From Oceanobacillus senegalensis (GTDB lineage: Bacteria > Bacillota > Bacilli > Bacillales > Amphibacillaceae), in the NCBI RefSeq assembly GCF_900176885.1, contig NZ_LT839648.1:2943008-3007007 (forward strand): a DNA stretch of 64,000 nucleotides, in the 5' to 3' direction. Position numbers and translations under genes: made by a program. Of this stretch, positions 17,868 to 35,270 are shown in pieces. How positions within the stretch are numbered: position 1 is the stretch's first letter; every line of letters begins with the position of its first letter. The notes beneath the pieces were generated by a model, which was given only the letters and a program-made list of their open reading frames with translations, searched no databases and was not told where the DNA came from.

Positions 17868-18680
17868 TTACAAATTATTATTTGCACTATCGGCTTCTAT
17901 AATTCGATGGGGGTGCGTATAAATATTTAATCGATTGCCACGTGTAAAGCCTATTACTGTAATACCTAAGTCATCTGCCAATTGTAAAGCAAGATTGGTC
18001 GGTGCTGACTTAGAAACAAGGATTCCCACACCCATCTTAGAAATCTTCAGTAATACTTCAGAAGAAATTCTACCGCTAAAAACGACTAATTTATCTCCAA
18101 GTTTTATTTTATTTTGGATAACATGCCCATATAACTTATCTAACGCATTATGTCTACCAATATCAGAACGGATGGTAATTATCTCATCGTGTGTTGCAAG
18201 TGCAGCATTATGAACTCCACCCGTTTTAATAAATTGTTCTGATTTTGTTTGAAGTGCATTCATTAATGTAAAACATTGGTTCACCGAGATAGAAAGTTGA
18301 CTCATAATTGTTTTTGCTGTTCGAACATCATTTTTAAAATAAAACTGCCGACTTTTTCCACAACAAGAACCGATGAACCGTTTGGAGTGATCCAGCTCGA
18401 AAACGTCTAAATCCTTTTTTAATTGAATGTAGGAAAATCCAAGTTTCTCATCTATCGATATTGATTTTATTTCATCATAGAAACGGATAACCCCTTCAGC
18501 CGCAAGAAAACCTACTATAAGATCTTGAAGATTCGTTGGCGTACATACGATGGTCGCAAACTCCTTCCCATTCAATATAATGGTAAATGGCTTTTCGATT
18601 GCAACCTCTTCTTGTAGGATAGACTTAGAATCTCCATTAAATCGAATTATTTCCCACCCATTCTTCTTCATATCATTCAT
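17868..18680 (-). CDS. fdhD: Formate dehydrogenase accessory sulfurtransferase FdhD
   Basis: 270-residue FdhD, which passes sulfur from a cysteine desulfurase to the molybdenum cofactor of formate dehydrogenase. The conserved cysteine motif is seen as IGSCCGKSR, and TGGVHNAALA, RSDIGRHNALDKLYGH and SGRISSEVLLK are typical family stretches. ATG 18680 follows TTAGGTGAAATGG, 10 bases after the stop of the upstream molybdopterin oxidoreductase gene, so the two are co-transcribed. Pairing with that oxidoreductase supports a formate dehydrogenase role for it. I see no frameshift or missing key residue. Confidence 0.93.
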   Translation of the reverse strand: MNDMKKNGWEIIRFNGDSKSILQEEVAIEKPFTIILNGKEFATIVCTPTNLQDLIVGFLAAEGVIRFYDEIKSISIDEKLGFSYIQLKKDLDVFELDHSKRFIGSCCGKSRQFYFKNDVRTAKTIMSQLSISVNQCFTLMNALQTKSEQFIKTGGVHNAALATHDEIITIRSDIGRHNALDKLYGHVIQNKIKLGDKLVVFSGRISSEVLLKISKMGVGILVSKSAPTNLALQLADDLGITVIGFTRGNRLNIYTHPHRIIEADSANNNL

Positions 18681-18690
18681 TCCATTTCAC

Positions 18691-21042
18691 CTAACCTAAT
18701 TCCATCTCAAGCTCCTCAACTCTCTTTTCCGCATATTTCGTATCTTTATGTGCAAAATATGTTTCCGCCTTTTCCAAGATAACGGCTGTATTATATTCCG
18801 GTATACCTGCATATTTTTCATAAACACCTTTTGGTACAAGTGCATTTCCTTCTGGCCAGTGTACTTCTATATTTCCTTCTTTTATTTTTACAAATTTGGC
18901 ATTACCATGAAATGTACCATATTGATTAAAAGCAACAACAGGATCGCCTTCTTTTATGCCTAGTTGTGTTGCATCTGCTTCATTCAAAAGTAGGTCATAA
19001 CGATCTGCATCATTAAATGGGTCTGTTTCATTATAAATCATCGAATTAAATTGTTTCCCACGTCGTGAGGTTACATAAAAATGTCCTTCTGGCTTACGTA
19101 GTTCTGGTAGTTCCACTGTAATGAGATTCCCTTTTCCATCTGGTGTTGGGCATATCCCATCTTCACATAGCCATGCACCTCCCCATTGAAAGAAATCTCC
19201 CCTATCTTTCAAATGTTGAATTCCATCATAATTTGGTGCCGCCTTTGCTATTTCCTCCCGAATTTCAAATGGATTTTTAAAATCAATTAGATGTTTTTCA
19301 TCCGGTTTTACTCTTTTAGCAAGGTCAACGTAAATTTCCCATTCTGCCCTTGCTTCTTCTATACGTGGTCCCTTTATTTCCGGTGAAAAATATACCATCC
19401 TTTCTGTAGAAGTAGAGGTTCCTCCACCGGGTTGCTCATACCGTGTCATCGCTGGTAGTACAATAACCGCTTCCTTGGCATCTACGAGGGTTGACGTGTT
19501 AAAAATGATATCCTGATGAACACGAATATCTATATTCTCTAAACATTGCTTCACAAAATCAGGATTGGGCATCGTTTCTAGAAAATTACCACCAGATAAA
19601 TAGTAGAGTTTAAGTTTTCGTTCATGATCATCTGGAAGGAGTGCATTCTCTAAGGAAACACCAACAATGTCACCTTGCCATGTTGGAATATCGAACCCCC
19701 AAATCGACTCCACTCTATTTCGATTTGCTTTATCCATACCCCCACCTGGAAGTACAAACGGGTCTGCTCCCATCTCCCCTGAACCTTGAACTCCAGAGTG
19801 CCCACGAATTGGCATTAGGCCACAATGTTCTCTTCCCAAAAAGCCTCTAAGCAAGGCTAGATTTGCTACCTGTGATATATTATCCGTACCAAATCGATGT
19901 TGTGTTAGTCCCATTGACCAAACAAATACCGCAGATTTTGATTGAGCAAGAAGATCTGCTAATTCAATCATCCGTTCTTTCGTTAATCCCGATGATTTTT
20001 CTAACTGCTCCCATTCATAGGCAACAACTTTTTCCCTCAACTCCTCCAACCCATTTACACGCGATGAAACAAATTCATGATCGATTGCAGAACCATAAGC
20101 ACTTTCCTCCATTGTAAACCAATGCTTCATGATTCCATGCATAAAAGCAATATCTCCACCAATATTAACTTGATAGACATCATCTGCTATTTTCGTTCCG
20201 AATAAAGCCGACTCTGGAATGGAAGGAACCCAGTAATTATCCATTGCAGGCTCATGATATGGATTTATAATGATAATTTTTGTACCCTTACGCTTTGCCG
20301 CATACATATATTTCGTGGAGACTGGTTGATTATTTGCTGCAACAGAACCCCAAAAGACAAGGACATCTGTACCGATCCAATCTTTATAGCTACATGTTGA
20401 TGCACCAACACCAACAGAACGATTTAATGCTGTTTTTGATGGGGAATGACAAATACGTGATGCATTATCAACATTGTTCGTACCTAGAAACCTGGATACC
20501 TTCCCTAATGTGTAATATGCTTCATTCGTAATTCCTCTTGACGTAGTATAAAATGCAAATTTCTTCGGATGAAGCATCTTCATTTTAGTTGAAATTTTAT
20601 CCAATGCATCATCCCAACTAATACGACTAAATTTCTTTTCTCCTGGTTTACGAATAAGTGGATACGGAATTCTGCCTAATTTACGCAATTCTGTACTACT
20701 CATTTTGCGTAAATCAGTAATATCAGCATGTAAAAATTTCTCATCCATAGCAGGCATCGTACTTAATCTTAGGACATTTAGACGGGTGGTACATAAATGT
20801 GGACCTGTTAACGTTTGATCCCTAAGTCCCGATACTCCAAGAGCACAACCATCACACACTCCTTGCGTGAGAATTCTCTTTGCATACGGAAGATTATCTT
20901 TATTTTCCCAAAGTACTTTCATTGTATCGCGAATATGATGTGGCTTCACTTTCCCAAGACCGAACGGAACTTTACTTACCCAAAGTGACGAGTCTGGTTT
21001 TCTAGGTAGTTTAACTGGACCAGTATGCTTTGTTTCCCCCAC
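18691..21042 (-). CDS. Molybdopterin oxidoreductase, FdhF/YdeP family (formate dehydrogenase-like)
   Basis: 783-residue cytoplasmic molybdopterin oxidoreductase, probably oxidising formate to CO2. The YdeP-type N-terminal region contains GVCDGCALGVSG. SRICHSPSKTALNRSVGVGA, LVFWGSVAANNQPVSTKYM and LRGFLGREHCGLMPIRGHSGVQG mark the cofactor domains. A molydopterin-dinucleotide binding domain (ELRKPEGHFYVTSRRGKQFN) forms the C-terminus. No in-frame TGA suggests selenocysteine. The start is most likely GTG 21042, 7 bases after GGAGG; ATG 21048 is too close to the site and the frame to 21090 has none. fdhD follows directly. The divergent formaldehyde dehydrogenase would supply formate. YdeP paralogues can have other substrates, so formate is an inference from context. 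Confidence 0.85.
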   Translation of the reverse strand: MGETKHTGPVKLPRKPDSSLWVSKVPFGLGKVKPHHIRDTMKVLWENKDNLPYAKRILTQGVCDGCALGVSGLRDQTLTGPHLCTTRLNVLRLSTMPAMDEKFLHADITDLRKMSSTELRKLGRIPYPLIRKPGEKKFSRISWDDALDKISTKMKMLHPKKFAFYTTSRGITNEAYYTLGKVSRFLGTNNVDNASRICHSPSKTALNRSVGVGASTCSYKDWIGTDVLVFWGSVAANNQPVSTKYMYAAKRKGTKIIIINPYHEPAMDNYWVPSIPESALFGTKIADDVYQVNIGGDIAFMHGIMKHWFTMEESAYGSAIDHEFVSSRVNGLEELREKVVAYEWEQLEKSSGLTKERMIELADLLAQSKSAVFVWSMGLTQHRFGTDNISQVANLALLRGFLGREHCGLMPIRGHSGVQGSGEMGADPFVLPGGGMDKANRNRVESIWGFDIPTWQGDIVGVSLENALLPDDHERKLKLYYLSGGNFLETMPNPDFVKQCLENIDIRVHQDIIFNTSTLVDAKEAVIVLPAMTRYEQPGGGTSTSTERMVYFSPEIKGPRIEEARAEWEIYVDLAKRVKPDEKHLIDFKNPFEIREEIAKAAPNYDGIQHLKDRGDFFQWGGAWLCEDGICPTPDGKGNLITVELPELRKPEGHFYVTSRRGKQFNSMIYNETDPFNDADRYDLLLNEADATQLGIKEGDPVVAFNQYGTFHGNAKFVKIKEGNIEVHWPEGNALVPKGVYEKYAGIPEYNTAVILEKAETYFAHKDTKYAEKRVEELEMELG

Positions 21043-21237
21043 AGACATCCCTCCAATAAAATATATTAACCTTCTATCTACTGAACTCAACTTAAGATTG
21101 TTTAATAATGTAGGAATAAAATGGACTACTAGATATATATATTAATTATAATGAAGGATCTTTATAATAGGCTATGTTCTACCATTATAATAACATACTA
21201 ATAAAAATATTTTAACATTTATAACTTATTTAAATTA

Positions 21238-21266: not shown

Positions 21267-21334
21267 TGAGATTAGAGACATATTGCTTATTACAAAGACA
21301 TCTTTAATAACAGATTATTTAAGGAGGTTTTTTG

Positions 21335-22585
21335 GTGAGTAACAAAGCAGTAGTGTATGTTAAACCTGGTGAAGTCGAGGTACGAGATATCGGTTATCCA
21401 GATTTAGTACTTCGTGATGGTCCAGGAGTCAATCCACTTAATGTAGGAAGAAAATGTAATCATGGTGTTATCGTAAAAGTAATTTCCACAAACATTTGTG
21501 GAAGTGACCAACACATGGTTAGAGGACGTACAACAGCACCCAGTGGATTAGTGCTTGGTCATGAAATTACCGGACAGGTTGTTGAAGTTGGTAGTGATGT
21601 TGAATTTATTGAAAAAGGTGACATCGTATCTGTTCCATTCAACATCGCATGCGGTCGTTGTGATAATTGTAGAAAACAGGATACTCATATTTGTACTAAT
21701 GTTAATCCTGATCGTCCAGGTTCTGCATATGGATATGTAGATATGGGTGGTTGGGTTGGTGGACAGTCTGAATATGTGATGGTTCCATATGCAGACTTCC
21801 AATTACTAAAATTCCCTGACAGAGATCAAGCATTAGAAAAAATACTAGATTTAACCATGCTATCAGATATCTTCCCTACTGGATACCATGGAGCAGTCAG
21901 TGCAGGTGTTAAAACTGGTTCAACAGTTTATGTTGCAGGGGCTGGACCGGTCGGATTAGCTGCTGCGCATTCCGCTCAGCTTTTAGGAGCATCTGTTGTT
22001 ATTGTTGGTGATTTAAACGAGGATCGCCTCACTCAAGCAAGAAGTTTCGGCTGTGAAACGGTGAATTTACGTGAACATGATGATCTCGGCGAACAAATTG
22101 AGCAACTATTAGGCACGCCTGAAGTGGATTGTGCAATAGATGCTGTTGGTTTTGAAGCTAGCGGACATGGTAGAGATGCTGGTGAAGCTCCTGCTACTGT
22201 ATTAAACTCCATTATGGACGTAACTAGAGCAGGTGGACGATTAGGTATTCCTGGTTTATATGTAACAGGGGATCCAGGCGCAGCCGACAAGGATGCAAAA
22301 GAAGGTACACTTAAAATCCGCTTCGGTCTAGGATTCGCAAAAGCACATACATTTGTAACAGGGCAAACTCCTGTTATGAGATACAATCGAGACCTAATGA
22401 AAGCCATTTTAAGTGGTAGAGCACAAATAGCAAAAGCCGTTAACGCTACTGTTATCTCACTTGATGAAGCTCCTAATGGCTATAAACAATTTGATGGCGG
22501 TGTATCAAGAAAATTCGTCATCGATCCACATAATATGATTAAAGAAAAAAGTTACTTAACCGCAAGTAAACAAATTTCCAACTAG
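21335..22585 (+). CDS. fdhA: Glutathione-independent formaldehyde dehydrogenase (zinc ADH family)
   Basis: 416-residue zinc-dependent dehydrogenase resembling Pseudomonas putida formaldehyde dehydrogenase (formaldehyde plus NAD to formate, or dismutation). Catalytic zinc ligands lie in TNICGSDQHMVRG and LGHEITGQVVE. Structural zinc cysteines lie in ACGRCDNCRKQDTHIC. The Rossmann motif is VAGAGPVGLAAA. The family-specific insert with VNPDRPGSAYGYVDMGGW and the C-terminal FATGQTP-like VTGQTPVMRYNRDLM are present. The start is GTG 21335, 8 bases after AAGGAGG; TTG 21332 is closer. It is divergent from the formate dehydrogenase-like gene, giving a formaldehyde to formate to CO2 pair. Confidence 0.92.
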   Translation: MSNKAVVYVKPGEVEVRDIGYPDLVLRDGPGVNPLNVGRKCNHGVIVKVISTNICGSDQHMVRGRTTAPSGLVLGHEITGQVVEVGSDVEFIEKGDIVSVPFNIACGRCDNCRKQDTHICTNVNPDRPGSAYGYVDMGGWVGGQSEYVMVPYADFQLLKFPDRDQALEKILDLTMLSDIFPTGYHGAVSAGVKTGSTVYVAGAGPVGLAAAHSAQLLGASVVIVGDLNEDRLTQARSFGCETVNLREHDDLGEQIEQLLGTPEVDCAIDAVGFEASGHGRDAGEAPATVLNSIMDVTRAGGRLGIPGLYVTGDPGAADKDAKEGTLKIRFGLGFAKAHTFVTGQTPVMRYNRDLMKAILSGRAQIAKAVNATVISLDEAPNGYKQFDGGVSRKFVIDPHNMIKEKSYLTASKQISN

Positions 22586-22985: not shown

Positions 22986-23414
22986 CTAGCGACCTGCACC
23001 AACATTCAAACTTTCAAAAACGTTAACTGCCGCCTGCGCTACTTGAACATCATGTTCTACACTACTTCCACTCACACCTACAGCCCCAACAACCTTACCA
23101 TCCTGTTTAAGTGGGATACCACCGCCAAATACTACAAGTCTTCCACTATTTGTTGTATTCAACCCATAAAGCTCAGCTTTCGGAACCGTTGCATCGGCTA
23201 AGTTAGAAGTAGGCATTTTCAGTGCAACAGAAGTCCAAGCTTTATTTTGAGCTATTTCTACACTTGCAAGCCAAGCGTCATCCATGCGATGAACAGCAAT
23301 AAGATTTCCACCTTCATCCAAAACAGAAATGACCATATTAACACCAAGTTTTTTTGATTCTTGCTCAGCACCTTCAATTAGTTTTTTCGCTACTTCTAAA
23401 TTTAATTTACTCAT
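22986..23414 (-). CDS. GlcG/HbpS family heme-binding-like protein
   Basis: 142-residue member of the GlcG/HbpS (DUF336) family, small cytoplasmic proteins linked to glycolate, diol and haem metabolism whose role is poorly defined. Visible family motifs: VVISVLDEGGNLIAVHRMDDAW, KAWTSVALKMPT and GGIPLKQDGKVVGAVGVSG. ATG 23414 follows AGGAGG by 8 bases; TTG 23420 gives two more residues. It lies inside the one-carbon island between the formaldehyde dehydrogenase and sarcosine oxidase genes, on the same strand as the latter. A role in handling H2O2 or haem made by sarcosine oxidation is only a guess. Inverted repeats at 23533-23557 lie in its upstream region. Confidence 0.88.
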   Translation of the reverse strand: MSKLNLEVAKKLIEGAEQESKKLGVNMVISVLDEGGNLIAVHRMDDAWLASVEIAQNKAWTSVALKMPTSNLADATVPKAELYGLNTTNSGRLVVFGGGIPLKQDGKVVGAVGVSGSSVEHDVQVAQAAVNVFESLNVGAGR

Positions 23415-23532
23415 TATCAATTCCTCCTATTATCAATCATTTTGCATTCATCCAGTAAAAATGGTTCAGCACTGATAGAACATTATATGATATTATCAGA
23501 TTCCTCCCTTTATGACGTTTAATAGGTTAATT

Positions 23533-23557: not shown

Positions 23558-23692
23558 GTGGTAGCTGGATTCAGGTAAAATAACTATTATAGATACCTGT
23601 AATCTGTAAAGCTGATATCCCATATCAGACGTTTCTCTATTGACTTTTAAATTAATAAAGGGAACTTTCAATCATCTAGGTTTTCTTTCATA

Positions 23693-23779: not shown

Positions 23780-24952
23780 TTAATTTTTTGCTTTCATAGA
23801 TAGACTAGGTCGATTTATACGGAAGAGGGAAATGTCATGGTCGGTTTCACCTGAAATGGCTAGTTGAGATAAAATCTCCCCGACAACACTAGCAAATTTA
23901 AATCCATGACCCGCGAACCCAGCCGCAATAGAAATATGTGAATGTTCCGGATGCTTATCAATAATAAAGTGGTCATCAGGAGTACGTGTGTACATACAAA
24001 TGACACCTTTTTTCAGCTCCCCTGATGCTTCCGGCATGAAGCGATCCAAGAACTCACGGATATGTCCTTCGTCATTTTCGCTAGATCCAAAATTGCGATT
24101 CATGGTATCTGGATCAATCGCATCAATATACTCATGTCTCCCCACTTTTACTCCACACCCTCCAAAAGATGGGAAGCCATAATAAATAGCCCTTGAATGA
24201 CCATTTGGAACTTCTACCATAAACGTTGGGAATGCATTTGCATTAAACAATGCTTCATTTGCTTCAAACCAGGCAACAGGTTGACGAGATGGCACAAGTG
24301 GTAGGTTCAGACCAACGTTGGAAGCCAGCTTTCCATTCCAGGATCCAGCACTAAGTATTAGCTTATCCCCAGTAAAACTGCCCTTTTTGGTAATTACTTT
24401 TACCGAATGATCATACGCCTCAATCGTTTGAACCGGGTCATTCATAGAAAGTTCAGCCCCATGAAATTCAGCTAGTTCTCGATATGCCTGGATACAGTTT
24501 TCACTAAACAAAAATCCTGAATCCGGCTCGTAGAATGCATCATAGTCATCTGGAACAGTTAGCCCAGGGAATCGATCCTTCAACTCTGCACCATTTAATC
24601 GTTCCACATTCAAGTTGTATTCCTTAGCACTTTCGATTGCTTCGTCAATAAATGGAGCATTCCCTTTTTGTCCAAAACCAATGGCACCACTTTGCATAAA
24701 TATTTTGTGATGCGTCTTTTTTTCTAGCTCATTCCACAATACCTGCGAACGAAGTGCCAAAGGAACATATTCTCGTCCTTCCCCATAGGCATGACGAATA
24801 ATTCGGGTCTCACCATAATGACTTCCTTGATCATGTGGCGGATCAAAGGCATCTACTAGTAACACGTTAACTCCTTGTCTAGCTAAATAATACCCAGCTG
24901 CCATTCCCATGGAACCAGCACCAATAACAATAACATCATAATGTTTCGTCAT
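23780..24952 (-). CDS. soxA: Monomeric sarcosine oxidase
   Basis: 390-residue flavoenzyme that oxidises sarcosine to glycine, formaldehyde and H2O2. The FAD-binding dinucleotide motif is VIVIGAGSMGMAAGYYLARQG. The covalent FAD cysteine is Cys319 in GVICMYTRTPDDHFI, and conserved GSHYGETRIIRHAYGEG and AGFAGHGFKFA are present. The length equals that of the Bacillus enzyme. In that enzyme, as I recall, the second residue of the GSHHG pair is His; here it is Tyr46, which may alter the active site. ATG 24952 follows GAGGGGGG; the frame to 24988 lacks a site. Neighbouring genes make sarcosine and consume formaldehyde, which supports the call over N-methyltryptophan oxidase. Confidence 0.92.
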   Translation of the reverse strand: MTKHYDVIVIGAGSMGMAAGYYLARQGVNVLLVDAFDPPHDQGSHYGETRIIRHAYGEGREYVPLALRSQVLWNELEKKTHHKIFMQSGAIGFGQKGNAPFIDEAIESAKEYNLNVERLNGAELKDRFPGLTVPDDYDAFYEPDSGFLFSENCIQAYRELAEFHGAELSMNDPVQTIEAYDHSVKVITKKGSFTGDKLILSAGSWNGKLASNVGLNLPLVPSRQPVAWFEANEALFNANAFPTFMVEVPNGHSRAIYYGFPSFGGCGVKVGRHEYIDAIDPDTMNRNFGSSENDEGHIREFLDRFMPEASGELKKGVICMYTRTPDDHFIIDKHPEHSHISIAAGFAGHGFKFASVVGEILSQLAISGETDHDISLFRINRPSLSMKAKN

Positions 24953-24997
24953 CTTTATCCCCCCTCGTATTTTATGGTTACACTCCAACCAAAGCCA

Positions 24998-25011
24998 GGT
25001 AAACGTTTACA
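24998..25011. promoter_or_regulatory. cre-like site upstream of soxA
   Basis: GGTAAACGTTTACA matches the CcpA consensus TGWNANCGNTNWCA at all but the first base and is almost palindromic. It lies 46 bases before the soxA start. The other bases of 24953-25379 hold the divergent soxA/LysR promoters but no further pattern I can support. Confidence 0.5.
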
Positions 25012-25379
25012 TAATAACCACTATTTTTCTTTCACACCCCCATATACGAAAGATCCTCGTAGGTCAATCAGTAAACTGTAAATAATATAGAACCTACCAT
25101 TATTATACGAACGATTTATCTCCATGTATAATGATGGGTAAAGATGTCTGCTATCTGTCTTACTGATGGTGTATAGAACACGTATTCCATACCATCATTT
25201 CATAACTACGAAGGGATGTTCAATATAGATTTCATCTTCTCGCTCCCTAAGATTTACACTATTGCCAACTTGTTAAATATTCTAAATTATTATAAAATAT
25301 AGTTGAGCTCTTGATCATTAGAAAAGATAGCTTTTATCACTAAATGGATGTCATTGGAATAATTAGTGGAGGGTTGTAA

Positions 25380-26614: not shown

Positions 26615-28078
26615 TTATATAGCTTTTTTCTCTGCAGTATTAAAATTTTCATGAATCATTTTTAACTTTCTAGACGGCGAACCAAAGATTCTACTAAATA
26701 CGTATGTGCCAATGATTGAAATAACCATACCGATTGATCCAGCAATCCAGACATTAGAATTTAGAAGTAAAATGGAAAAAGCTACAACTCCTAAAAGGGA
26801 AGCAACAATTGCTCCTTCTTTTGTTGCCTTTTTATCAAACACGGCCATAATGATGGGACCTACAACAAGAGACCCCATTCCGCCTAGTGCACCATACACG
26901 AGGATGGAAAGAAATTCAGGCGTTCGAACAAGTGAACCGACGATAGCAATGCTTCCTATGATCAATGTGCTAATCTGTGAGATTCTTAGACTTTGCCTAT
27001 CCGTTAATTTCATACCAAAACACTTTTGGATTAAATCATACCCGACGGTTGTACCCACTGAGTGTAAAATAGATGAAACTGTAGTAAGCACTGCTGATAA
27101 AACGCCTATGACTACCAACGCTCCTATATAAGTCGGAAAATAGGTACTAACAAATACTGGCAATACGGCATCTGCTTGATCTAGGTTAGGAAATAATATT
27201 CTACCCGCATACCCTGCCCACATACCCCCGCTAATGATAACTGTAAATAGAATGACATAAATGACCACTTTCCTAAAGCTCTTTACATCATTTAAGGCAA
27301 AAAGTCTAATACTCATGTATGGTTGACCAATTTGCCATAGGCTATAATAGATTAGCATAAAAATAACGGTTATGGGGGTAAACATCACCGGATCAAAAAT
27401 CCCTGTAAGAGTGGAATCAATAGTAGTTAACCTCTCATTCATCGCTCCCCATCCACCTACCATATATATACTTGCTGGAACGATGAATATCATGAGTACC
27501 GCCATAAAAATACTTTGGGCCGCATCTGTCCAAGCAACAGTTACAAATCCCCCTTTTGAAGAGAATATAATTAAAACGGCACCTAGTACAATAATTGGCC
27601 AGTCAAATGAGGTTCCAAAAAAGGCGCTAAATAACACTCCTACTCCTTTAAATTGGGCGACCATCATTGGTGTGTAAAATATTAATATCCCGAGCGACAT
27701 AATTAACTGTAAAAACCTACTTTCATATATTTCTCCTAAAAAGTCTGGAACAGTTAACGTATTTAATCTCACACTAATCATACGCATCCTTGGTCCAAAG
27801 AATAAAATCGGTATAACGATCCCAATCAGACAGCCTACCCAAATCCATGTCATAGACCAGCCATATTCATATGCAAGTCCAGGGTTTCCTAAAAAACTAC
27901 TTGCACTACCATACGTTGCTATAATCGTAGCAGCAACAATAAGTGGACCCATATTCCTACTAGCCAACGCAAAATCTGCCGTAGATTTCGTTTTCTTTGA
28001 GGATACATATCCAACGATAAGCAGGAATACTAGAAAAAGTGACAAAGATACAATAATCGTGATCATGGTATTGTCCAT
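26615..28078 (-). CDS. Sodium:solute symporter (SSS family)
   Basis: 487-residue SSS-family transporter with about 13 membrane segments. Family features include STADFALASRNMGPLIVAAT near the N-terminus, the sodium-site stretch SSFLGNPGLAYEYGWSMTW and GGMGSLVVGPIIMAVFDKKA. Such carriers import proline, pantothenate, sugars or small carboxylates with Na+. Position in the island makes N-methylhydantoin, creatinine or sarcosine candidate substrates (inference). ATG 28078 shares one base with the TGA of the small upstream ORF (TGATG); a TTG at 28081 is an alternative start. A terminator lies downstream at 26514. Confidence 0.9.
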   Translation of the reverse strand: MDNTMITIIVSLSLFLVFLLIVGYVSSKKTKSTADFALASRNMGPLIVAATIIATYGSASSFLGNPGLAYEYGWSMTWIWVGCLIGIVIPILFFGPRMRMISVRLNTLTVPDFLGEIYESRFLQLIMSLGILIFYTPMMVAQFKGVGVLFSAFFGTSFDWPIIVLGAVLIIFSSKGGFVTVAWTDAAQSIFMAVLMIFIVPASIYMVGGWGAMNERLTTIDSTLTGIFDPVMFTPITVIFMLIYYSLWQIGQPYMSIRLFALNDVKSFRKVVIYVILFTVIISGGMWAGYAGRILFPNLDQADAVLPVFVSTYFPTYIGALVVIGVLSAVLTTVSSILHSVGTTVGYDLIQKCFGMKLTDRQSLRISQISTLIIGSIAIVGSLVRTPEFLSILVYGALGGMGSLVVGPIIMAVFDKKATKEGAIVASLLGVVAFSILLLNSNVWIAGSIGMVISIIGTYVFSRIFGSPSRKLKMIHENFNTAEKKAI

Positions 28079-28203
28079 CAATCCGATTCCCCTTTAATAA
28101 ATCTATCCATCTTTTCTTTTGTCCAATATTTATTCATATATAGTATAGATAAAAATAAGGTTCCCCCTACACAAATGATGTAGTAAAGAAAAGCCATATG
28201 CAT
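28078..28203 (-). CDS. Symporter small accessory protein
   Basis: 41-residue protein starting MHMAFLYYIICVGGTLFLSI, with one membrane segment (about 4-23) and a charged tail NKYWTKEKMDRFIKGESD. AAAAGGAGTGATTAAG precedes ATG 28203. Its stop codon overlaps the symporter start by one base, implying coupled translation and a stoichiometric partnership. Short single-span ORFs directly ahead of SSS symporters are a recognised arrangement in Bacillales. It probably assists assembly or function of the carrier. Confidence 0.8.
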   Translation of the reverse strand: MHMAFLYYIICVGGTLFLSILYMNKYWTKEKMDRFIKGESD

Positions 28204-28441: not shown

Positions 28442-30211
28442 TTATTGTGTAAATAATGGTAGCTTCCCTCTCTGTTTGCGCATATCTTCTCTTCTTTCTT
28501 CCGTTTTTTCCATATTGAGATGCCCTTGTTCGATAACAACACCATAATCATTAAATGCAGTTTTAACAGAGACAATCTCGTCAAGGACATCTTCATAGAC
28601 CTTTCTGGCATTCCGTTCTAGTGGATCACCGTAACCACCGGAAGATGGTACCATAATTTTCACAGATTCCCCTGCTTTAAAACGTTTCCCGTTTAATTTG
28701 GAAGGGAGTTCCTCCGGATTGATATCCGGGTTTTTAATTAATGATGCCTCCGTACCTGGTAAACCACCATTGTACCCCCATGGTTTTACGGTGTGTTTAT
28801 CCCCTTCCATGGACATAAATCCATCTGTCAAAAAGCGATTCCAACGTATTATTCCGAGTCCACCTCGTGTTTTACCAGCACCACCAGTATCTTCTCTTAA
28901 TTCATACTGCTCGCAAATCATCGGAGTATGCATATCAAGGTCTTCAATTGGATTGTTTCGCGTATTCCATGAAACATAGTCCATGGCATCCATGCCGTCT
29001 TTTTCAGGACGACCACCATAAGAACCCTCATTAACTTCAATGTACACCCAATAATTACGATCCTGGTCCAAACCGGAATAAGAAGCAAATTGGATATTGG
29101 CGGATCCACCTGCACAAGTTTTCTCCGGTATGACGGATGTTAATGCCTTAATAATTAAATCAGCCGCAGTATTGACCTGGTTTGCTCGACTAAAGGTAGC
29201 CGCCGGTTTTATTGGGTTAAAGATACTTCCCTTCCTCGCTGTTACTTTAATCGGACGAAACACACCATGATTAGCTGGCACAAATTCTTCATGAGTATAG
29301 GTATCAAGAAATATCGAACGTAACGTGCTATACACACTTACACATAGTGCACCAGAATAGGCAGCGTTAAAAGCAGAAGCAACCTGGTCAGCAGATTTAG
29401 AAACATCTATTTCCAGCTCGTCGCCTTTTTTAATTACATTCACATGTACCTTCAATTTTTCATTCAGATTAATACCATCATCATCCAGCCATGACTCTGC
29501 TTCATATTCACCATCAGGAATCTTAGCGATTTCTGTGCGCATCATTCGTTCGGAATAATTCATTAATTCCTCACCAGCAGCTAGTACCGTATCTTTTCCA
29601 AATTTATCAAGAAGTTCTATAAACCTCTTTGTCCCAAGTCGACAAGCAGCTACCTGTGCTTCTAGATCGCCAATAACGATGGAGGATGTGCGCACCTTCT
29701 GTCTGACAATTTCAAACAATGTTTCATTCGGTTTTCCTTTGTCATACAGCTTTACACCGTTTAATACTAAACCCTCTGCATAAACATCAGGGGCATCGAC
29801 GATTAATCCCGGCTGTGCACCACCAATATCAAGGTGATGTGCAGTTGTTCCTGCATAACCAATTAATTCACCTTCATAGAAAATGGGCTGCGTTAGCGAT
29901 ATATCAGGTGAATGGGATGCACCAGCATATGGATCATTATTCCAGATAATATCATCTGGATGCTGATCGTCCCCGAGTACTTCCTGAAACCCTTGAATAT
30001 AACCAGGAAGACATCCTAATTGCATTGGCGTTGAGTCAGACTCAGCCAATGTTTCGCCAAATCTTGTGAATATCCCAGCACCAAGATCCTCCGACTCCCG
30101 GATAAGTGAAGAATAAGCCATCCGTTGCATAAGATGAGACATTTCTTTAGCAATGGTATCCAACGCCCCACCAATGACTTGCACCGTTACTGGATCAACC
30201 TTTTTACTCAT
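28442..30211 (-). CDS. hyuB: Hydantoinase B/oxoprolinase family subunit (N-methylhydantoinase beta)
   Basis: 589-residue HyuB-type subunit of an ATP-dependent cyclic-amide hydrolase. Family sequences: DPVTVQVIGGALDTIAKEM at the start, TSIV- and ESEDLGAGIFT-type residues in LIRESEDLGAGIFTRFGETL, DPYAGASHSPDISLTQPIF, TTAHHLDIGGAQPG and GGYGDPLERNARKVYEDVLD at the end. With HyuA it would open N-methylhydantoin to N-carbamoylsarcosine using ATP. It overlaps hyuA by 8 bases. Oxoprolinase, acetone/acetophenone carboxylase or plain hydantoinase are alternatives in the same family; the amidase and sarcosine oxidase genes nearby favour N-methylhydantoin. Confidence 0.9.
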   Translation of the reverse strand: MSKKVDPVTVQVIGGALDTIAKEMSHLMQRMAYSSLIRESEDLGAGIFTRFGETLAESDSTPMQLGCLPGYIQGFQEVLGDDQHPDDIIWNNDPYAGASHSPDISLTQPIFYEGELIGYAGTTAHHLDIGGAQPGLIVDAPDVYAEGLVLNGVKLYDKGKPNETLFEIVRQKVRTSSIVIGDLEAQVAACRLGTKRFIELLDKFGKDTVLAAGEELMNYSERMMRTEIAKIPDGEYEAESWLDDDGINLNEKLKVHVNVIKKGDELEIDVSKSADQVASAFNAAYSGALCVSVYSTLRSIFLDTYTHEEFVPANHGVFRPIKVTARKGSIFNPIKPAATFSRANQVNTAADLIIKALTSVIPEKTCAGGSANIQFASYSGLDQDRNYWVYIEVNEGSYGGRPEKDGMDAMDYVSWNTRNNPIEDLDMHTPMICEQYELREDTGGAGKTRGGLGIIRWNRFLTDGFMSMEGDKHTVKPWGYNGGLPGTEASLIKNPDINPEELPSKLNGKRFKAGESVKIMVPSSGGYGDPLERNARKVYEDVLDEIVSVKTAFNDYGVVIEQGHLNMEKTEERREDMRKQRGKLPLFTQ

Positions 30212-32348
30212 CCCCTAACACCACCTTTGAAAATTTCTTTTCTCTATCTTTGGAAGTCCCTTCTTTTGGTGTTGCAAGTAATGTGCCATGCGAAGAAACT
30301 ATCACTTGCCAGTCCGGCGGAACAATGGTTGTTGAATCACGTTGAATGATGGAAGCAGGTCCTGTAATCCAATCATTCGCCATCAATTTTTCTCGTTGAT
30401 ATCGCGGTGTTGGCAATCCTTTAAATTCCCCGTCTACTTTAAAATAGGTTTGCCTTTCATACATCTTAGCTTCCTTTGGATTTGTTCGTTTCATTTCCTC
30501 TAATTTTGGCAATCTTAGTGATGGTGTCTTTCCTTTTGCAACAATATCTAAAGAGATTAATTCTACCGTATTCTCTGGAAAGTAATGACCATATTCCTGT
30601 TGATGGATAGAATGGAATCTAGATACAATCTCTTGGATGCTTTGTTTGGTTAATTTTCCTTCTGGAATCGGCACACGCAACTCAAAACCTTGGCCCATAT
30701 AGCGACATTCCGCAATCCGTTCAAACTCAATATTACGCTTACTGATACCGTCCTGAATTAACTGTGATTCGGCTTTCTGCTCTAATTGCTCTAGCTGCTG
30801 TACCAACCTTGTTACAAGATAATATGAAATCGTTTTCATTTTCTCGATATGGGAAGCGTTAAAATGGTATTTTAAGTCACTAACTAATAAACCAGTAGAG
30901 GCTGTAATACCCGGATAATTAGGAACCATTACAAGCTTCGAATCAATCGTTTTGGCTAAATCAATAGAATGGAGTGGCCCTGCACCGCCAGCTGCCAATA
31001 AGGCAAAATCCCTTGGATCAATTCCTTTACGTACAGAATTTTCTCGAATCGAAAGTGCCATATTGTTATTAATGATTTCTAGTATTCCAAAGGCTGCTTC
31101 CTCAACAGTCATATTTAATTTGTCAGCAACCTTCTTTTTAATAGCCTCAGCACTTTTTTCTGGGTAGAGCGGAATATCCCCACCCAAAAACTGTTCTGGA
31201 TCCAACCTTCCTAAAACAACATTGGCATCTGTTACACACGGATCTTCACCGCCTTGCCCGTAACATGCAGGTCCCGGTGTTGAACCAGCACTCTTTGGTC
31301 CTACACGAAATGCTCCACCAGCGTCAACATAGGCAATAGATCCTCCCCCAGCACCAATCGTATCAACTTCTAGCATAGGGGTAACCACCGGATAACTATT
31401 CACTTCCGCATCCCTTGGATTTACCACTCGTGGAGTATTATCCGGGATAATAGAAATATCAGCAGAAGTACCACCAATATCGACACTAATGACATCTTTT
31501 ATACCTTCTAACTGCCCCCACCATGAAGCAGCTAATACGCCTCCTGCAGGTCCAGATTTTAATAGATTCATAGGGGATACCATCGCATTTTGAGATGAGG
31601 CCATTCCACCTGACGATTGCATGATTTGGAGTTTCCCCTTCACATTAGCTTCTTTAAGCGATTGGACTAAATTATTGATATATTGATTAACCTTAGGTGC
31701 AACAAAGGCATTCATTGCTGTCGTGCTGAAACGTTCATATTCACGTATCCGAGGCGCAACCTCGCTGGAGGTGAAACATTGTATTTCCGGCCAAATTTCT
31801 TTCACTATTTCTTTTGCTCTTCTCTCATGGACATCATTAAGAAATGAGAAAAGGAAAGCTACAATAATAACTTCTACCCCTTCCGCTTTCAACTTTCTAA
31901 CCGCATCACGAACCTCTTGTTCATTCATTGGAGTACGGATTTGTCCATTAGGTGCTTGAAGCTTTTCCGTAATTGGAATACGGTGCCTACGCTTTACCAA
32001 TGGATTATCCTGCCAAGGAAGGCTTTGCTGAATAGAAAAGTTTTCACTCTTTTTATGACGAGCTATATGCAGTATGTCGCGATAATTTCTTGTTGTCAGC
32101 ATACCAACCTTCGCACCATTACCTTCTATCGTAATATTGGTTGCAACAGTGGTTCCATGAAGAATGTATTCCACATCCCGCACATCGACACCACTCATTG
32201 TACAAAGTTCTTTAATTCCTTTAATGACACCGACTGATTGGTCATATAGTGTACTTGGTACTTTGTGTACGTTTATTTTATTTACTTTCTCATCTATTAA
32301 TATCAAATCAGTAAACGTACCACCAACATCGACCCCGATACGAACCAT
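30204..32348 (-). CDS. hyuA: Hydantoinase A/oxoprolinase family subunit (N-methylhydantoinase alpha)
   Basis: 714-residue HyuA-type ATPase subunit with ASKHA-like phosphate motifs: RIGVDVGGTFTDLI at the N-terminus, SVDIGGTSADISIIPD in the middle, and VDTIGAGGGSIAYVDAGGAF. AAGGAGPLHSIDLA and VPNYPGITASTGLL are also typical. It would phosphorylate the substrate amide as part of ATP-driven ring opening together with HyuB. ATG 32348 (MVRIGVD) is 7 bases after GGAG; ATG 32354 is too close to the site. hyuA and hyuB form an operon. The 540-base region upstream carries no sigma-54 promoter that I trust. Confidence 0.92.
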   Translation of the reverse strand: MVRIGVDVGGTFTDLILIDEKVNKINVHKVPSTLYDQSVGVIKGIKELCTMSGVDVRDVEYILHGTTVATNITIEGNGAKVGMLTTRNYRDILHIARHKKSENFSIQQSLPWQDNPLVKRRHRIPITEKLQAPNGQIRTPMNEQEVRDAVRKLKAEGVEVIIVAFLFSFLNDVHERRAKEIVKEIWPEIQCFTSSEVAPRIREYERFSTTAMNAFVAPKVNQYINNLVQSLKEANVKGKLQIMQSSGGMASSQNAMVSPMNLLKSGPAGGVLAASWWGQLEGIKDVISVDIGGTSADISIIPDNTPRVVNPRDAEVNSYPVVTPMLEVDTIGAGGGSIAYVDAGGAFRVGPKSAGSTPGPACYGQGGEDPCVTDANVVLGRLDPEQFLGGDIPLYPEKSAEAIKKKVADKLNMTVEEAAFGILEIINNNMALSIRENSVRKGIDPRDFALLAAGGAGPLHSIDLAKTIDSKLVMVPNYPGITASTGLLVSDLKYHFNASHIEKMKTISYYLVTRLVQQLEQLEQKAESQLIQDGISKRNIEFERIAECRYMGQGFELRVPIPEGKLTKQSIQEIVSRFHSIHQQEYGHYFPENTVELISLDIVAKGKTPSLRLPKLEEMKRTNPKEAKMYERQTYFKVDGEFKGLPTPRYQREKLMANDWITGPASIIQRDSTTIVPPDWQVIVSSHGTLLATPKEGTSKDREKKFSKVVLGDE

Positions 32349-32890
32349 ACACATTCTCCTCTCATTTGTGGATTAGTAGTCAAAATTATTTACAACAATC
32401 ATTCCCTATTATTTCTATTAGTTCGATCTATTTTTATAATATTTAAAATTATTATAAAATTAAGTCTCATGTTTGTATAATAACTTGTAAAGATATCTCT
32501 TATCATCCAAACTGATTGCCATAAATACGTATAAAGTAAAGCTTCATTCAGCCGAGGCTCCCCCCACTTCTCCCAAGTTTATTTTTATCATAGGAGAGAG
32601 CAGAATTGAGTTATTAGGAACAATGAAAACCCCACATAAAAATTATGTTATTCTCTCCATTTTGGGGGTGGGGTTTTCACGTAACCTTAGGTCATTACGT
32701 ATTCTTGATAGTCTTCATCTACTATATCCAGTATCTCTTCCAATCATCATTTTAGTAGGAAGTATATTAGACCACCAAGTCACTGTTAGAAGTGGTCTAT
32801 ACTTGCACCTAAGTGATGATTTCAGAACTTACTTTAATATGGTCATACTAAAGGGAATGACACTAGACTACCCCGTGATATTCATATTTA
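32349..32890. other. hyuA leader and intergenic region
   Basis: 542 bases between the amidase gene and hyuA. It holds a hairpin, GAAAACCCCAC (32625-32635) with GTGGGGTTTTC (32668-32678), that could end amidase transcription. The first half must hold the hyuAB promoter. A minus-strand TGGCA-N10-GG match at 32506-32521 is too weak to call sigma-54. Confidence 0.4.
32625..32678. terminator. Hairpin downstream of the amidase gene
   Basis: Eleven-base arms GAAAACCCCAC and GTGGGGTTTTC enclose a loop of about 32 bases. GGGGTTTTC gives a short T-run on each strand. Confidence 0.5.
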
Positions 32891-33625
32891 TTAAGTGAAC
32901 TGTTTTGTCTTGTTGCTGTTGTAAACACTATCATCGATGCTAGTTAAGTAATCAACTACTTCATCAACTGGTAGAACGTCTGCAAATTTTGCATCCATAT
33001 CAAATAGATTCCATTCCACAACTCCTGGCACTCTATCACCGATCGTTCCTTCTGGTACAATGGTTTTAAACCCATATCCAGTAGAATCCATTACGGTATG
33101 ACGTACACATGCACAAGCTGTAGCTCCCATGACGATTAGTGTATCAACCCCTAGTTTAACCAATGTTTGAGCGAGATGTGTTCCAAAAAAGTTACTTGCA
33201 TATTTTTTATGAATAACTGGCTCTTCTGGCCTTGGCTTAAGCTTTGGATCGATTTCCATCCATTCGGAGTCTATTTCTAATGTATGCAATGGAATTTTCT
33301 CATCCCATCTTGGTAAATCCCACTGTTCTTTTCCTACAAAGCCCGTTGTTGTATGAAAAATTGGGACACCAGATTTTCTCCCAGCTTCTAATACCTTTAA
33401 AGCATTTGCACAAATTTCATCGTTGTTATTACACGTAAATGGATGTCCTTCACTCATCCAAGCCTTCGCCATGTCAACGGTAGTAATCGCTGGAGCCTTC
33501 CCAAAGCCCATTCGTTTTTGGAACCCTCTCTCTTTATAAATTTTTCTTGCCTCTGCAAATGCCTTTTCTAATAACTCCTGATCAAATTCATAGTTCCCTT
33601 GATTGTCTGTGTACTTTTTATTCAT
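32891..33625 (-). CDS. N-carbamoylsarcosine amidase (isochorismatase fold)
   Basis: 244-residue cysteine hydrolase that should split N-carbamoylsarcosine into sarcosine, CO2 and ammonia. The Asp-Lys-Cys triad is visible: Asp51 in ITTVDMAKAW, Lys140 or Lys141 in VIHKKYASNFFGT, and Cys173 in GATACACVRHTVMD. These positions and the DPKLKPRPEEPVIHKKYAS stretch match the Arthrobacter N-carbamoylsarcosine amidohydrolase pattern I know better than nicotinamidase or plain isochorismatase. ATG 33625 follows GGGAGGAATTATTC, so the long frame to 33913 is not used. It has its own perfect sigma-54 promoter and seems monocistronic. Confidence 0.85.
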   Translation of the reverse strand: MNKKYTDNQGNYEFDQELLEKAFAEARKIYKERGFQKRMGFGKAPAITTVDMAKAWMSEGHPFTCNNNDEICANALKVLEAGRKSGVPIFHTTTGFVGKEQWDLPRWDEKIPLHTLEIDSEWMEIDPKLKPRPEEPVIHKKYASNFFGTHLAQTLVKLGVDTLIVMGATACACVRHTVMDSTGYGFKTIVPEGTIGDRVPGVVEWNLFDMDAKFADVLPVDEVVDYLTSIDDSVYNSNKTKQFT

Positions 33626-33672: not shown

Positions 33673-33688
33673 TGCAAAATCCGTGCCA
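33673..33688 (-). promoter_or_regulatory. Sigma-54 (-24/-12) promoter of the amidase gene
   Basis: The minus strand reads TGGCACGGATTTTGCA, an exact match to the sigma-54 consensus TGGCAC-N5-TTGCW, about 50 bases before the amidase start codon. A sigma-54 activator gene ends 167 bases upstream. Confidence 0.93.
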
Positions 33689-33739
33689 ACTTTTAAAAGG
33701 TTCATATAATAGGAAATACGGTAATAAAAAATGAATACT

Positions 33740-33759: not shown

Positions 33760-33790
33760 AAATGTATGGAGAGGGCAAAAACACTAGGAG

Positions 33791-33804
33791 TGATAACGTT
33801 TTCA
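33791..33804. promoter_or_regulatory. Consensus cre site
   Basis: TGATAACGTTTTCA fits the CcpA site TGWNANCGNTNWCA at every position and lies between the two enhancer palindromes. Carbon catabolite repression of the amidase is therefore likely. Confidence 0.75.
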
Positions 33805-33824
33805 TTTCTGCAACATTATGACCT

Positions 33825-33844
33825 ATTTTGCAAAAATGCAACAG
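33825..33844. promoter_or_regulatory. Likely activator binding site (UAS) palindrome 2
   Basis: ATTTTGC-N6-GCAACAG keeps one perfect half of the first palindrome with the same spacing, about 135 bases from the promoter. A further half-site CTGCAACA lies at about 33808-33815. Confidence 0.55.
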
Positions 33845-33854
33845 CTTTCTATGT

Positions 33855-35270
33855 TTAAATATCAATATCATATTTTTTAATTTTTCTAGAAAGAGTGGAA
33901 GGGTTAATACCAAGGGTTTTTGCTGCCTTTCTCAAGGAACTATGTTTATTAAGTGCGGATTGCAATATACTTTTTTCATAGACCTCCATCAGGTAATCTA
34001 ACTTACCTTTTTGACCTTCAGCGTGTTTATAGTCGTTCATTAGTACATGTTCATTTAATATCTTATCTGGTAGCTGTTCAAAACTTATTTCTTCTCTTTC
34101 GTTCATAATAAACATGTATTCCACTACATTTTGTAGCTCCCTTACATTTCCTGGCCAGGAGTATTTTACAAGCGCTTCGACAAGGTTTTGGGACATGATG
34201 ACGTTTTTCTGGTATTTTGTGTTAAGTTTTTTTAAAAAGTGATTGATCAACTCTCTTATATCCTCTGGTCTATTTCTGAGGGGAGGAATGGTAATGGGAA
34301 TCACATTCATCCTAAAATATAAATCTTCTCTAAATGTGCCATTTTTAATTTCCTCTAAAAGATTCCTATTAGTTGAAGAAATAATTCTCACATCTAATTT
34401 GATCGGTTTTGTTCCACCAATTCGTAAAACTTCCTGTTCTTGTATGACTCTTAACAACTTAGATTGAATCGGCATGGTGAGTTCTCCAATTTCATCTAAC
34501 AGTATCGTTCCGGTATTGGCTAGTTCAAACAATCCAGCCTTTCCAGAATTAGAAGCTCCTGTAAAAGAACCAGGCATATAACCAAAGAGCTCAGATTCAA
34601 ATAGATCCTTAGGTATCGCTGCACAATTTACTTTTATAAAGGGCTTATCTTTACGATTGCTATGTTGATAAATAAAATTGGCTAAAACTTCCTTTCCCGT
34701 TCCAGATTCTCCAGAGATAAGTATCGTACTATCAAATGCAGCTGCATTTGAGGCAAACCTTAATACTTCCTGCATAGCCATACTTTTATAGATCAGTCCC
34801 TTAGCTGGGAAATGTTCTTTTCGCAAAAGTTCTAATTCTTGAGAATATCGCTGCTTTATTAGATTGACTCTCTCCAGTTCTTTCTTTAGGTTTATTAGAT
34901 CTTCTATGTTTCTCGTATTACATATGACTCCTATCATTTCTTTATCTTTGTCGAATATAGGGGCAGCAGTTGTAAGTGCGGTTCTGCCAGATATATACCT
35001 ATGAATCAATGATATAGATTGCTTGGTTTCCAATACCTTTAAGGTTGCGGATTCATTAAAAGCATTTTCATCTAGAAGTGTTTGCAATTTTTTCCCAAGA
35101 ATTTCACTTCTTTTTAGGCCGGATATATTTTCATAAGCTGGATTAACGTAAAGCGTATTACCATCCATATCAGCTATTAACACACCATCTGAAGAAGATT
35201 CTAACCCTCCAAATATATAGTCTTGTATTTGTTCCATTACCTCTTCTTTCATTTTCATGGAATGCTCCAA
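33855..35270 (-). CDS. Sigma-54-dependent activator (PAS, AAA+, Fis-type HTH)
   Basis: 471-residue enhancer-binding protein. A PAS domain (about residues 10-120; SSDGVLIADMDGNTLYVNPA) is followed by an AAA+ domain with Walker A GESGTGKE, the sigma-54 contact loop as GSFTGA instead of GAFTGA, and Walker B GTILLDEIGEL. A C-terminal Fis-type helix-turn-helix (AAKTLGINPSTLSRKIKKYD) ends the protein. The start is probably TTG 35270, 7 bases after GGAGG; the frame to 35327 has no site. It is directly upstream of the amidase promoter and should activate it when the PAS domain senses a pathway compound. Autoregulation and control of hyuAB are open. Confidence 0.93.
   Translation of the reverse strand: MEHSMKMKEEVMEQIQDYIFGGLESSSDGVLIADMDGNTLYVNPAYENISGLKRSEILGKKLQTLLDENAFNESATLKVLETKQSISLIHRYISGRTALTTAAPIFDKDKEMIGVICNTRNIEDLINLKKELERVNLIKQRYSQELELLRKEHFPAKGLIYKSMAMQEVLRFASNAAAFDSTILISGESGTGKEVLANFIYQHSNRKDKPFIKVNCAAIPKDLFESELFGYMPGSFTGASNSGKAGLFELANTGTILLDEIGELTMPIQSKLLRVIQEQEVLRIGGTKPIKLDVRIISSTNRNLLEEIKNGTFREDLYFRMNVIPITIPPLRNRPEDIRELINHFLKKLNTKYQKNVIMSQNLVEALVKYSWPGNVRELQNVVEYMFIMNEREEISFEQLPDKILNEHVLMNDYKHAEGQKGKLDYLMEVYEKSILQSALNKHSSLRKAAKTLGINPSTLSRKIKKYDIDI

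Follow-up and report, generated by a model that had tools for sequence, protein, structure and literature searches.

A probable composite locus for N-methylhydantoin and sarcosine catabolism in Oceanobacillus senegalensis, with predicted sigma-54 and LysR control

Introduction

The N-carbamoylsarcosine amidase of Arthrobacter is part of an aerobic pathway for N-methylhydantoin, which arises in the breakdown of creatinine, and the same genus reportedly holds a cluster of creatininase, creatinase and soxA genes with the LysR-family regulator SoxR. Both the pathway and its enzymes are already known: excerpts of PMC8453981 describe an ATP-dependent N-methylhydantoinase of Pseudomonas putida 77, excerpts of PMC4941409 describe creatininase–creatinase–soxA clusters with SoxR, and excerpts of PMC8864220 give codA, crnT, hyuB, cshA and soxA as creatinine genes of Corynebacterium glutamicum ATCC 14067. 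Anaerobic degraders of creatinine or N-methylhydantoin include Tissierella creatinophila and Clostridium FS41 (PMC5364220, PMC4417704); a D-hydantoinase-like gene was noted beside the amidase gene of the former, with a role that was only suggested (PMC5364220), and the latter reportedly opens N-methylhydantoin without ATP, its genome having yielded only the subunit B gene of the known two-subunit enzyme (PMC4417704). Here we analyse a stretch of 64,000 nucleotides (the window) from Oceanobacillus senegalensis (positions 2,943,008 to 3,007,007 of contig NZ_LT839648.1, which is 4.28 Mb long; genome size 4.30 Mb, completeness 99.99%), in which genes for a predicted two-subunit N-methylhydantoinase (HyuAB), an N-carbamoylsarcosine amidase and a monomeric sarcosine oxidase (SoxA) lie together.

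Set beside these systems, the locus is like the aerobic pathway in both enzymes, as judged by sequence, and HyuA also lies near the amidase in eight Arthrobacter or Paeniglutamicibacter loci; it is unlike that pathway in that HyuA and HyuB are split, in contrast to the single 1288-residue chain of the solved structure 7hk5 and a 1391-aa open reading frame (ORF) at locus L072, and in that a sigma-54 activator gene adjoins the amidase gene. With T. creatinophila it shares an amidase (87% identical) and an activator (75%), and the promoter and dyad described below are present there too, whereas that organism has a D-hydantoinase-like (dihydropyrimidinase-type) ring-opener and sarcosine reductase where we find HyuAB and sarcosine oxidase. 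As in the creatininase–creatinase–soxA clusters, a LysR gene lies next to soxA, and five relatives within the genus pair creatinase with soxA; unlike those clusters, the locus offers neither creatininase nor creatinase, and hyuAB has an operator-like element instead. The SoxR site of Bacillus thuringiensis, as given in the excerpts of PMC4941409, is an A/T-rich sequence unlike the TTGC-N6-GCAA dyads reported here. For C. glutamicum ATCC 14067 the excerpts of PMC8864220 propose the same enzyme set, leading from N-methylhydantoin to glycine, but under AmtR control and with CodA, of which our genome has no match. Among open-licence PMC papers, nothing was found on Oceanobacillus together with creatinine and sarcosine oxidase.

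Considering gene identities, conserved neighbourhoods, recurring motifs and tree placements, from which we infer activities and regulator binding, we think it quite probable that this is a composite N-methylhydantoin/sarcosine catabolic locus, made of two joined modules, in which HyuAB, the amidase, SoxA and a formaldehyde dehydrogenase (FdhA) serve one route under sigma-54 and LysR control. An earlier note on this DNA had proposed a creatinine or N-methylhydantoin utilisation island with two regulators, formaldehyde and formate disposal and a symporter. Every gene that it named is where it had been placed and is borne out by Pfam and NCBIfam, and the regulators are there as a sigma-54 activator and a LysR protein; of its overall interpretation the N-methylhydantoin route and the formaldehyde partner stand, in contrast to formate disposal and the symporter as a conserved part. 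It had missed that there are two modules, each with its own regulator, that a sigma-54 promoter and dyads are present, that hyuA, soxA and HbpS share a putative operator and that the ring-opener is exchangeable.

Methods

Comparisons covered 28 genomes of the genus and 397 of the order (G numbers), 50 amidase loci (L numbers) from a scan of genome contigs, and nine other soxA stretches of the genus of about 20 kb each; the genomes behind L029 and L030 probably coincide with G150 and G409. Genes around the amidase were found by tblastn, and 'directly downstream' (directly 3′) means a start within 2.5 kb 3′ of the amidase.

The predicted catabolic route

The route from N-methylhydantoin through N-carbamoylsarcosine and sarcosine to glycine and formaldehyde, which the earlier note had put forward, is well supported by the matches of HyuAB, the amidase and SoxA to solved structures (Table 1). 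The amidase, an isochorismatase-family protein (PF00857), almost certainly starts at 33625 (MNKKYTD..., with GAGGGAGG just before), as opposed to the listed ORF of 32891–33913. Numbered from that start, its Asp51, Lys140 and Cys173 align with 1NBA, leaving the triad that had been read from the sequence intact, and do not vary across any of the 50 aligned rows, of which the window is one and L074, L075 and L078 are not. Among solved structures 1NBA ranks first, followed by 26st, which has the same name (142 bits), and by the next entry at 93 bits; the models for biuret amidohydrolase and RutB leave the protein far under cut-off. In these comparisons the amidase is closer to the characterised N-carbamoylsarcosine amidohydrolase than to other isochorismatase-like hydrolases, in line with its first assignment.

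Amidase matches at E <= 1e-30 occur in 10 of the 397 order genomes, close ones only in our genome and G150 (93%), the others being 34–40% identical. Five of the 28 genus genomes carry it (our own, G418, G150, G420 and G409), and the amidases of the 50 loci, mostly 75–93% identical to the window's, come from Oceanobacillus, Tissierella, Clostridia and other mostly anaerobic bacteria; those of the eight Arthrobacter/Paeniglutamicibacter loci are 45–48% identical and that of L074 43%. Measured by path in the amidase tree, no row from beyond the genus is nearer than T. creatinophila; the tree leaves the five genus rows unresolved. Sarcosine-reductase genes lie within the stretch in 13 of the 50 loci (Pfam GRDB in two representatives).

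HyuA scores 633 bits against the 7hk5 chain, titled N-methylhydantoinase, vs 404 against 6yra, and HyuB 612 vs 221; the 6yra chains, which carry the titles 5-oxoprolinase and hydantoinase, belong to what we take to be a caprolactamase. In a HyuA tree of 63 rows, built by a quick method with SH-aLRT as the only support and without bootstrap, a 28-row clade (SH-aLRT 100) unites the window with G418, 7hk5, 13 further HyuA from loci with this type of amidase and 12 sequences of other Bacillales, 7hk5 nesting among the Arthrobacter/Paeniglutamicibacter proteins; 6yra and the second HyuA copy of our genome fall outside. HyuAB groups in this way with the solved N-methylhydantoinase, as had been anticipated. 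It contains Hydantoinase_A and Hydantoinase_B domains, and the translation holds DVGGTFTD and DIGGT, to be compared with the phosphate-site motifs DxGGTxTD and DxGGT given in the excerpts of PMC8453981.

The family is substrate-diverse, with caprolactam and N-methylpyrrolidone examples in the excerpts of PMC8453981 and PMC12866759, HyuA homologues are common (64 of the 397 order genomes at E <= 1e-100), and 12 rows of the clade come from outside loci of this amidase type, so the true substrate of HyuAB might be a different lactam or imide (5-oxoproline, caprolactam, a 5-substituted hydantoin or a compound of N-methylpyrrolidone type), with hyuAB following the amidase by coincidence. We regard this as very improbable, given that the nearest solved relative is an N-methylhydantoinase, that both subunits stay under the NCBIfam caprolactamase equivalog cut-offs (598.7 and 283.7 bits vs 1000), that all 15 HyuA beside this amidase type lie in the N-methylhydantoinase clade, and that hyuA has the operator-like element of soxA. 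Two findings weigh on the other side. In G205, G309, G330 and G394 (L021, L022, L019 and L024) a HyuA from outside the clade lies directly beside an amidase 36–40% identical to the window's, so that HyuA with an isochorismatase-type amidase is in itself no proof of substrate; and the HyuA of L103 (G144), which adjoins an amidase 34% identical, lies inside the clade.

The four out-of-clade pairs possibly represent a sister pathway for another hydantoin or a lactam. Among the other Bacillales HyuA of the clade, L097–L101 and L104 have a sigma-54 activator 40–43% identical to the window's within the stretch. A second hyuAB pair in our genome (L028:12230-16058, on the 20.8-kb contig C3) was rejected as an N-methylhydantoinase, its HyuA being 41% identical to the window's and outside that clade; the ORF just 3′ of it is 25% identical to the window's SSS symporter, and two ORFs look short-chain-dehydrogenase-like by eye.

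For SoxA the evidence is divided. Solved structures favour monomeric sarcosine oxidase (MSOX; 548 bits) over N-methyltryptophan oxidase (288 bits), whereas in NCBIfam the protein misses the soxA_mon cut-off (417.4 bits vs 479.65) and exceeds that for N-methyl-L-tryptophan oxidase (461.6 bits vs 257), which weighs against the assignment; the label therefore rests only on the PDB comparison and the neighbourhood. FdhA passes its equivalog cut-off and lies within the stretch in three of the nine other soxA loci, as befits the formaldehyde partner for which it had been taken.

Table 1. Features of the predicted locus (positions counted from the first letter of the window)
Feature	Position	Strand	Basis
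hyuA, ATP-dependent N-methylhydantoinase large subunit (predicted)	30204..32354	-	633 bits to 7hk5; clade placement
hyuB, N-methylhydantoinase small subunit (predicted)	28442..30211	-	612 bits to 7hk5 vs 221 to caprolactamase
N-carbamoylsarcosine amidohydrolase (predicted)	32891..33625	-	1NBA 48% identity, 214 bits; triad 50/50 rows
soxA, monomeric sarcosine oxidase (predicted)	23780..24988 (probable start 24952)	-	548 bits to MSOX chains
fdhA, glutathione-independent formaldehyde dehydrogenase	21332..22585	+	TIGR02819 751.9 bits vs cut-off 636.95
Sigma-54 enhancer-binding activator (PAS, AAA+), probable amidase regulator	33855..35327	-	Sigma54_activat 227 bits, PAS, GSFTGA motif
-24/-12 sigma-54 promoter TGGCACGGATTTTGC	33674..33688	-	starts 63 bp upstream of amidase start
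Distal dyad TTGC-N6-GCAA, candidate enhancer	33828..33841	.	recurrence across amidase loci
Proximal dyad TTGC-N6-GCAA	33743..33756	.	68 bp from -24 element, start to start
LysR regulator of sarcosine module	25380..26297	+	PF00126/PF03466
30-bp putative LysR operator upstream of hyuA	32475..32504	-	0 mismatches, 31.5 bits
30-bp putative LysR operator upstream of soxA	25126..25155	-	0 mismatches, 35.1 bits
30-bp putative operator upstream of HbpS gene	23575..23604	-	1 mismatch, 19.5 bits
AGGTAAACGTTTACAT palindrome upstream of soxA	24997..25012	.	weak
HbpS-like protein	22986..23420	-	PF03928; 4/9 other soxA loci
FdhF/YdeP-family molybdoenzyme	18691..21090	-	TIGR01701 855 bits; module link unsupported
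FdhD	17868..18680	-	TIGR00129 249 bits; module link unsupported
SSS sodium:solute symporter	26615..28081	-	PF00474; below NCBIfam sss, PanF, PutP cut-offs

Probable exchange of the ring-opening enzyme

A ring-opener candidate accompanies the amidase too often for chance, as the earlier note had supposed of the clustering: among the 50 amidase loci, the gene directly 3′ is dihydropyrimidinase-like in 24 and hyuA in five, and eight, all Arthrobacter or Paeniglutamicibacter, have HyuA elsewhere in the stretch (five loci were too short for the call and L078 gave no amidase match). Against a general pairing stand seven loci in which tblastn detected neither type; one of them, L074, has a HyuB-like ORF 33% identical. 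Within the genus, our genome and G418 have HyuAB (HyuA 84% and HyuB 93% identical between them), and G150, G420 and G409 have the dihydropyrimidinase-like type. The ring-opener of O. chungangensis (L026:17112-18560) passes the dihydropyrimidinase/D-hydantoinase model (480.7 vs 393.25 bits); our genome also has a dihydropyrimidinase (L009, 667.5 bits), which lies away from the locus and is 41% identical to that of O. chungangensis.

The ring-opener was probably exchanged independently of the amidase, since the window HyuA is 45–48% identical to five clostridial HyuA whose amidases are 82–84% identical, and since approximately unbiased (AU) tests rejected one clade of window, G418 and clostridial HyuA (p-AU 0.012), as well as a single clade of all HyuA of this amidase type (p-AU 0.002), on a reduced set of 32 rows and with groups named after the tree was seen. 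Divergence is also much faster among dihydropyrimidinase-like proteins than among the amidases, and part of the gap between HyuA and amidase identities may be explained by such speed. The activators of the window and G418 are compatible with being sisters (p-AU 0.124), and one swap is therefore indistinguishable from two.

A dihydropyrimidinase remnant in the amidase–hyuA gap was sought and rejected, the best tblastn match anywhere in the window having E 1.2. At L032:10806-12222, and also at L036, L051 and L054, a DUF5058 protein follows the amidase where the ring-opener would sit, and at L032 a second protein of 226 aa without Pfam match follows as well; the pair was discarded as a third ring-opener type, since Pfam identified one as DUF5058 and, at 1e-8, had no match for the second. 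An NCS1-type permease adjoins clostridial amidase–hyuA–hyuB genes at L041:10435-12591 (where Pfam finds it fused to a cytidylate-kinase-like domain) and L044:14798-16924, and is a candidate N-methylhydantoin transporter.

A predicted sigma-54 circuit upstream of the amidase

An activator domain, a -24/-12 promoter and upstream dyads, the parts expected of a sigma-54 activator circuit, are all found at the amidase. An activator match of more than 45% identity occurs in 18 of the 50 amidase loci, and in the activator tree five genus rows, T. creatinophila and a Tissierella sp. form a clade of seven (100/100). Of the 18 loci with the activator, all but L049 (17) have a strict -24/-12 motif in the 350 bp before the amidase start, compared with 0 of 31 without it; the motif is present as well in the window, G418 and G420, against a background of 25 matches in 1.68 Mb. 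TTGC-N6-GCAA dyads within 450 bp upstream follow the same division (17 of 18, missing L036, vs 1 of 31; background 43 in 0.84 Mb); 11 of these loci have at least two dyads, spaced 85–87 bp apart in 8 of the 11, the window pair being 85 bp apart. The arrangement of dyad and -24/-12 motif is found once in our genome, at the amidase promoter, with 0 cases for a reversed-pattern control. According to an excerpt of PMC12316311, the HyuA COG is one of those that are under sigma-54 regulation and enriched in Bacilli. On sigma-54 in connection with creatinine and sarcosine reductase, the open-licence PMC matches listed include no title on this circuit and two B. thuringiensis sigma-54 papers, one of them on sarcosine use.

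A putative LysR operator and the joining of two modules

When the amidase–hyuA spacer was compared by BLAST with the collected loci, one non-self match was returned, the LysR/permease intergenic region of G413 (E 8e-7), and closer comparison added the corresponding region of G399 (E 2e-10). The operator was described by a pattern, GATA-N5-YATCT-N7-TYATTWTAC, drawn by eye with the window copies in view, and by a matrix trained on 27 non-window sites (at most three mismatches, eight loci; some may be chance). In relatives the pattern lies upstream of soxA, a permease–creatininase operon, creatinase, HbpS and fdhA. The three best matrix sites of the window are those at soxA, hyuA and HbpS, to be set against 16.8 bits for the best of 20 single-strand mononucleotide shuffles, and a fourth at 17639 (12.6 bits) is within chance; at three mismatches the pattern gave five matches vs 0.95 expected from dinucleotide shuffles, and 0 of 100 shuffles reached five.

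Most simply, hyuAB and soxA would here be under joint control by LysR, the presumed binder from its position. Several points tell against it: the pattern was drawn on sequences among which are the window's, and it also served to select the training sites of the matrix; the assignment of the element to LysR rests on position alone; and the matrix scan found no strong copy at the window fdhA. Against the composite reading as a whole it counts that amidase and hyuA are parted by 536 bp (32355–32890), compared with 62 bp in G418, whose amidase–hyuA stretch has no operator match, and because of this distance transcription from the sigma-54 promoter may not extend to hyuAB; no intrinsic terminator was found near the gap. 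The spacer also holds an inverted repeat, GTGAAAACCCCAC (32668-32680 on the minus strand, and 32623-32635 on the plus strand with one mismatch). The AGGTAAACGTTTACAT palindrome upstream of soxA, which we take to be cre-like, escaped all three of the cre consensus patterns used in scanning, and a consensus cre site there was accordingly discarded.

Around soxA, the LysR gene recurs in six of the nine other stretches (68–83% identity) and creatinase in five. A soxA match at E <= 1e-80 is present in 20 of the 28 genus genomes and reaches at least 68% identity in 10 (the G403 match being partial); all five amidase carriers and all five creatinase carriers are among these 10, G150 and G418 having both and G403 and G404 neither. 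It could nevertheless be argued that two unrelated neighbours have met by chance, amidase–hyuAB supplying nitrogen from N-methylhydantoin and LysR–soxA handling sarcosine from another source: in the other four genus carriers (G150, G409, G418 and G420) a long distance or a contig boundary separates the soxA block from the amidase block, so that their adjacency here may be accidental and the window as one operon or island was rejected, and soxA occurs with neither amidase nor creatinase in G403 and G404. We consider such a chance meeting unlikely indeed, since the element upstream of soxA is also at hyuA, since this soxA occurs in 5/5 amidase carriers vs 5/23 others (chance of five of five among the 10, 252/98280 or ~0.003, calculated by hand and uncorrected for kinship), and since in G409 a LysR copy adjoins the activator–amidase block. 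That copy (L148:10744-13710; 75%) is divergent from an activator–amidase–dihydropyrimidinase block, with a weak operator match (three mismatches) between. The G409 soxA gene is followed, in its own orientation, by gcvT, gcvPA and a gene for serine hydroxymethyltransferase.

The entry compound

The earlier note had left open whether creatinine or N-methylhydantoin itself enters the route, and had called for a genome-wide search for creatinine deaminase. In our genome we found no creatininase (PF02633, E <= 0.001), no creatinase (E <= 1e-60) and no deaminase of CodA type (E <= 1e-30), within a search for homologues of known enzymes, which speaks for N-methylhydantoin and leaves a creatinine utilisation module without its expected enzymes. 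N-methylhydantoin, or a compound turned into it by an unknown enzyme, is likely to be the entry compound as far as gene content tells.

A deaminase of unrecognised kind elsewhere in the genome might still turn creatinine into N-methylhydantoin. The LysR–soxA set travels with creatininase and creatinase in relatives, a CodA-like match occurs in 23 of the 28 genus genomes (only 28% identical in G402), including the other four amidase carriers, and our genome holds amidohydrolases of unknown substrate. We judge this unlikely, given that no creatininase, creatinase or CodA match was obtained and that none of the 14 PF07969 matches of the genome proved CodA-like (seven ORFs compared with NCBIfam, two with PDB and nine by BLAST against CodA, with two matches not looked at singly); those looked at fit other families or none, and the best CodA match among the nine had E 2e-6 over 60 residues.

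Other genes in and near the locus

Formate disposal by the FdhF-like protein and FdhD, which the earlier note had built into the island, found no support: the two are in 0 of the nine other soxA loci, and the FdhF-like protein, which meets the FdhF/YdeP subfamily model, scores 343.6 bits against formate dehydrogenase alpha (TIGR01591), under the cut-off of 666.25. The SSS symporter likewise could not be upheld as a conserved part, since neither the 50 amidase loci nor 12 stretches from the genus had a match labelled for it, and none occurs in the nine soxA stretches. The HbpS-like gene had gone unnamed before. At 35511-39308 follow MFS transporter, esterase-like and FAD monooxygenase-like genes, which likewise had no labelled match in those 50 loci and 12 stretches. 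Base composition is unremarkable, the lowest values being 34.5% (activator) and 35.2% (fdhD) vs 38.6% for the window.

Discussion

We suggest that HyuAB would open N-methylhydantoin with ATP to N-carbamoylsarcosine, from which the amidase would release CO2 and NH3 to leave sarcosine; monomeric sarcosine oxidase would then yield glycine, formaldehyde and H2O2, and FdhA would oxidise the formaldehyde. The sigma-54 activator, acting at the two dyads, would turn on the amidase promoter, and the LysR protein may act on the 30-bp operator upstream of hyuA, soxA and HbpS. As to origin, an activator–amidase block common to Tissierella and Clostridia, with an exchangeable ring-opener, may have been joined to a LysR–sarcosine module that appears to serve creatininase and creatinase in relatives.

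More tentatively, and with doubts that we hold to be somewhat stronger than the grounds in its favour, it can be proposed that the ring-opener of the N-methylhydantoin route is a plug-in part. Under one sigma-54 activator and amidase, the dihydropyrimidinase type of the anaerobes, which is probably ATP-independent, would have been replaced in some Oceanobacillus by ATP-dependent HyuAB; here HyuAB would then have joined the LysR sarcosine regulon, which in relatives serves creatininase and creatinase. The outcome would be an aerobe that lacks known creatinine enzymes and may live on N-methylhydantoin released by its neighbours.

Given that the same amidase block occurs with either ring-opener in sister species, the assignment of the ring-opener and the cost of the ATP variant are testable by complementation. 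Finally, the recurring promoter and dyads would serve to recognise N-methylhydantoin operons in Clostridia, Tissierella and Bacillaceae alike, which may bear on how bacteria of gut and sewage break down creatinine.

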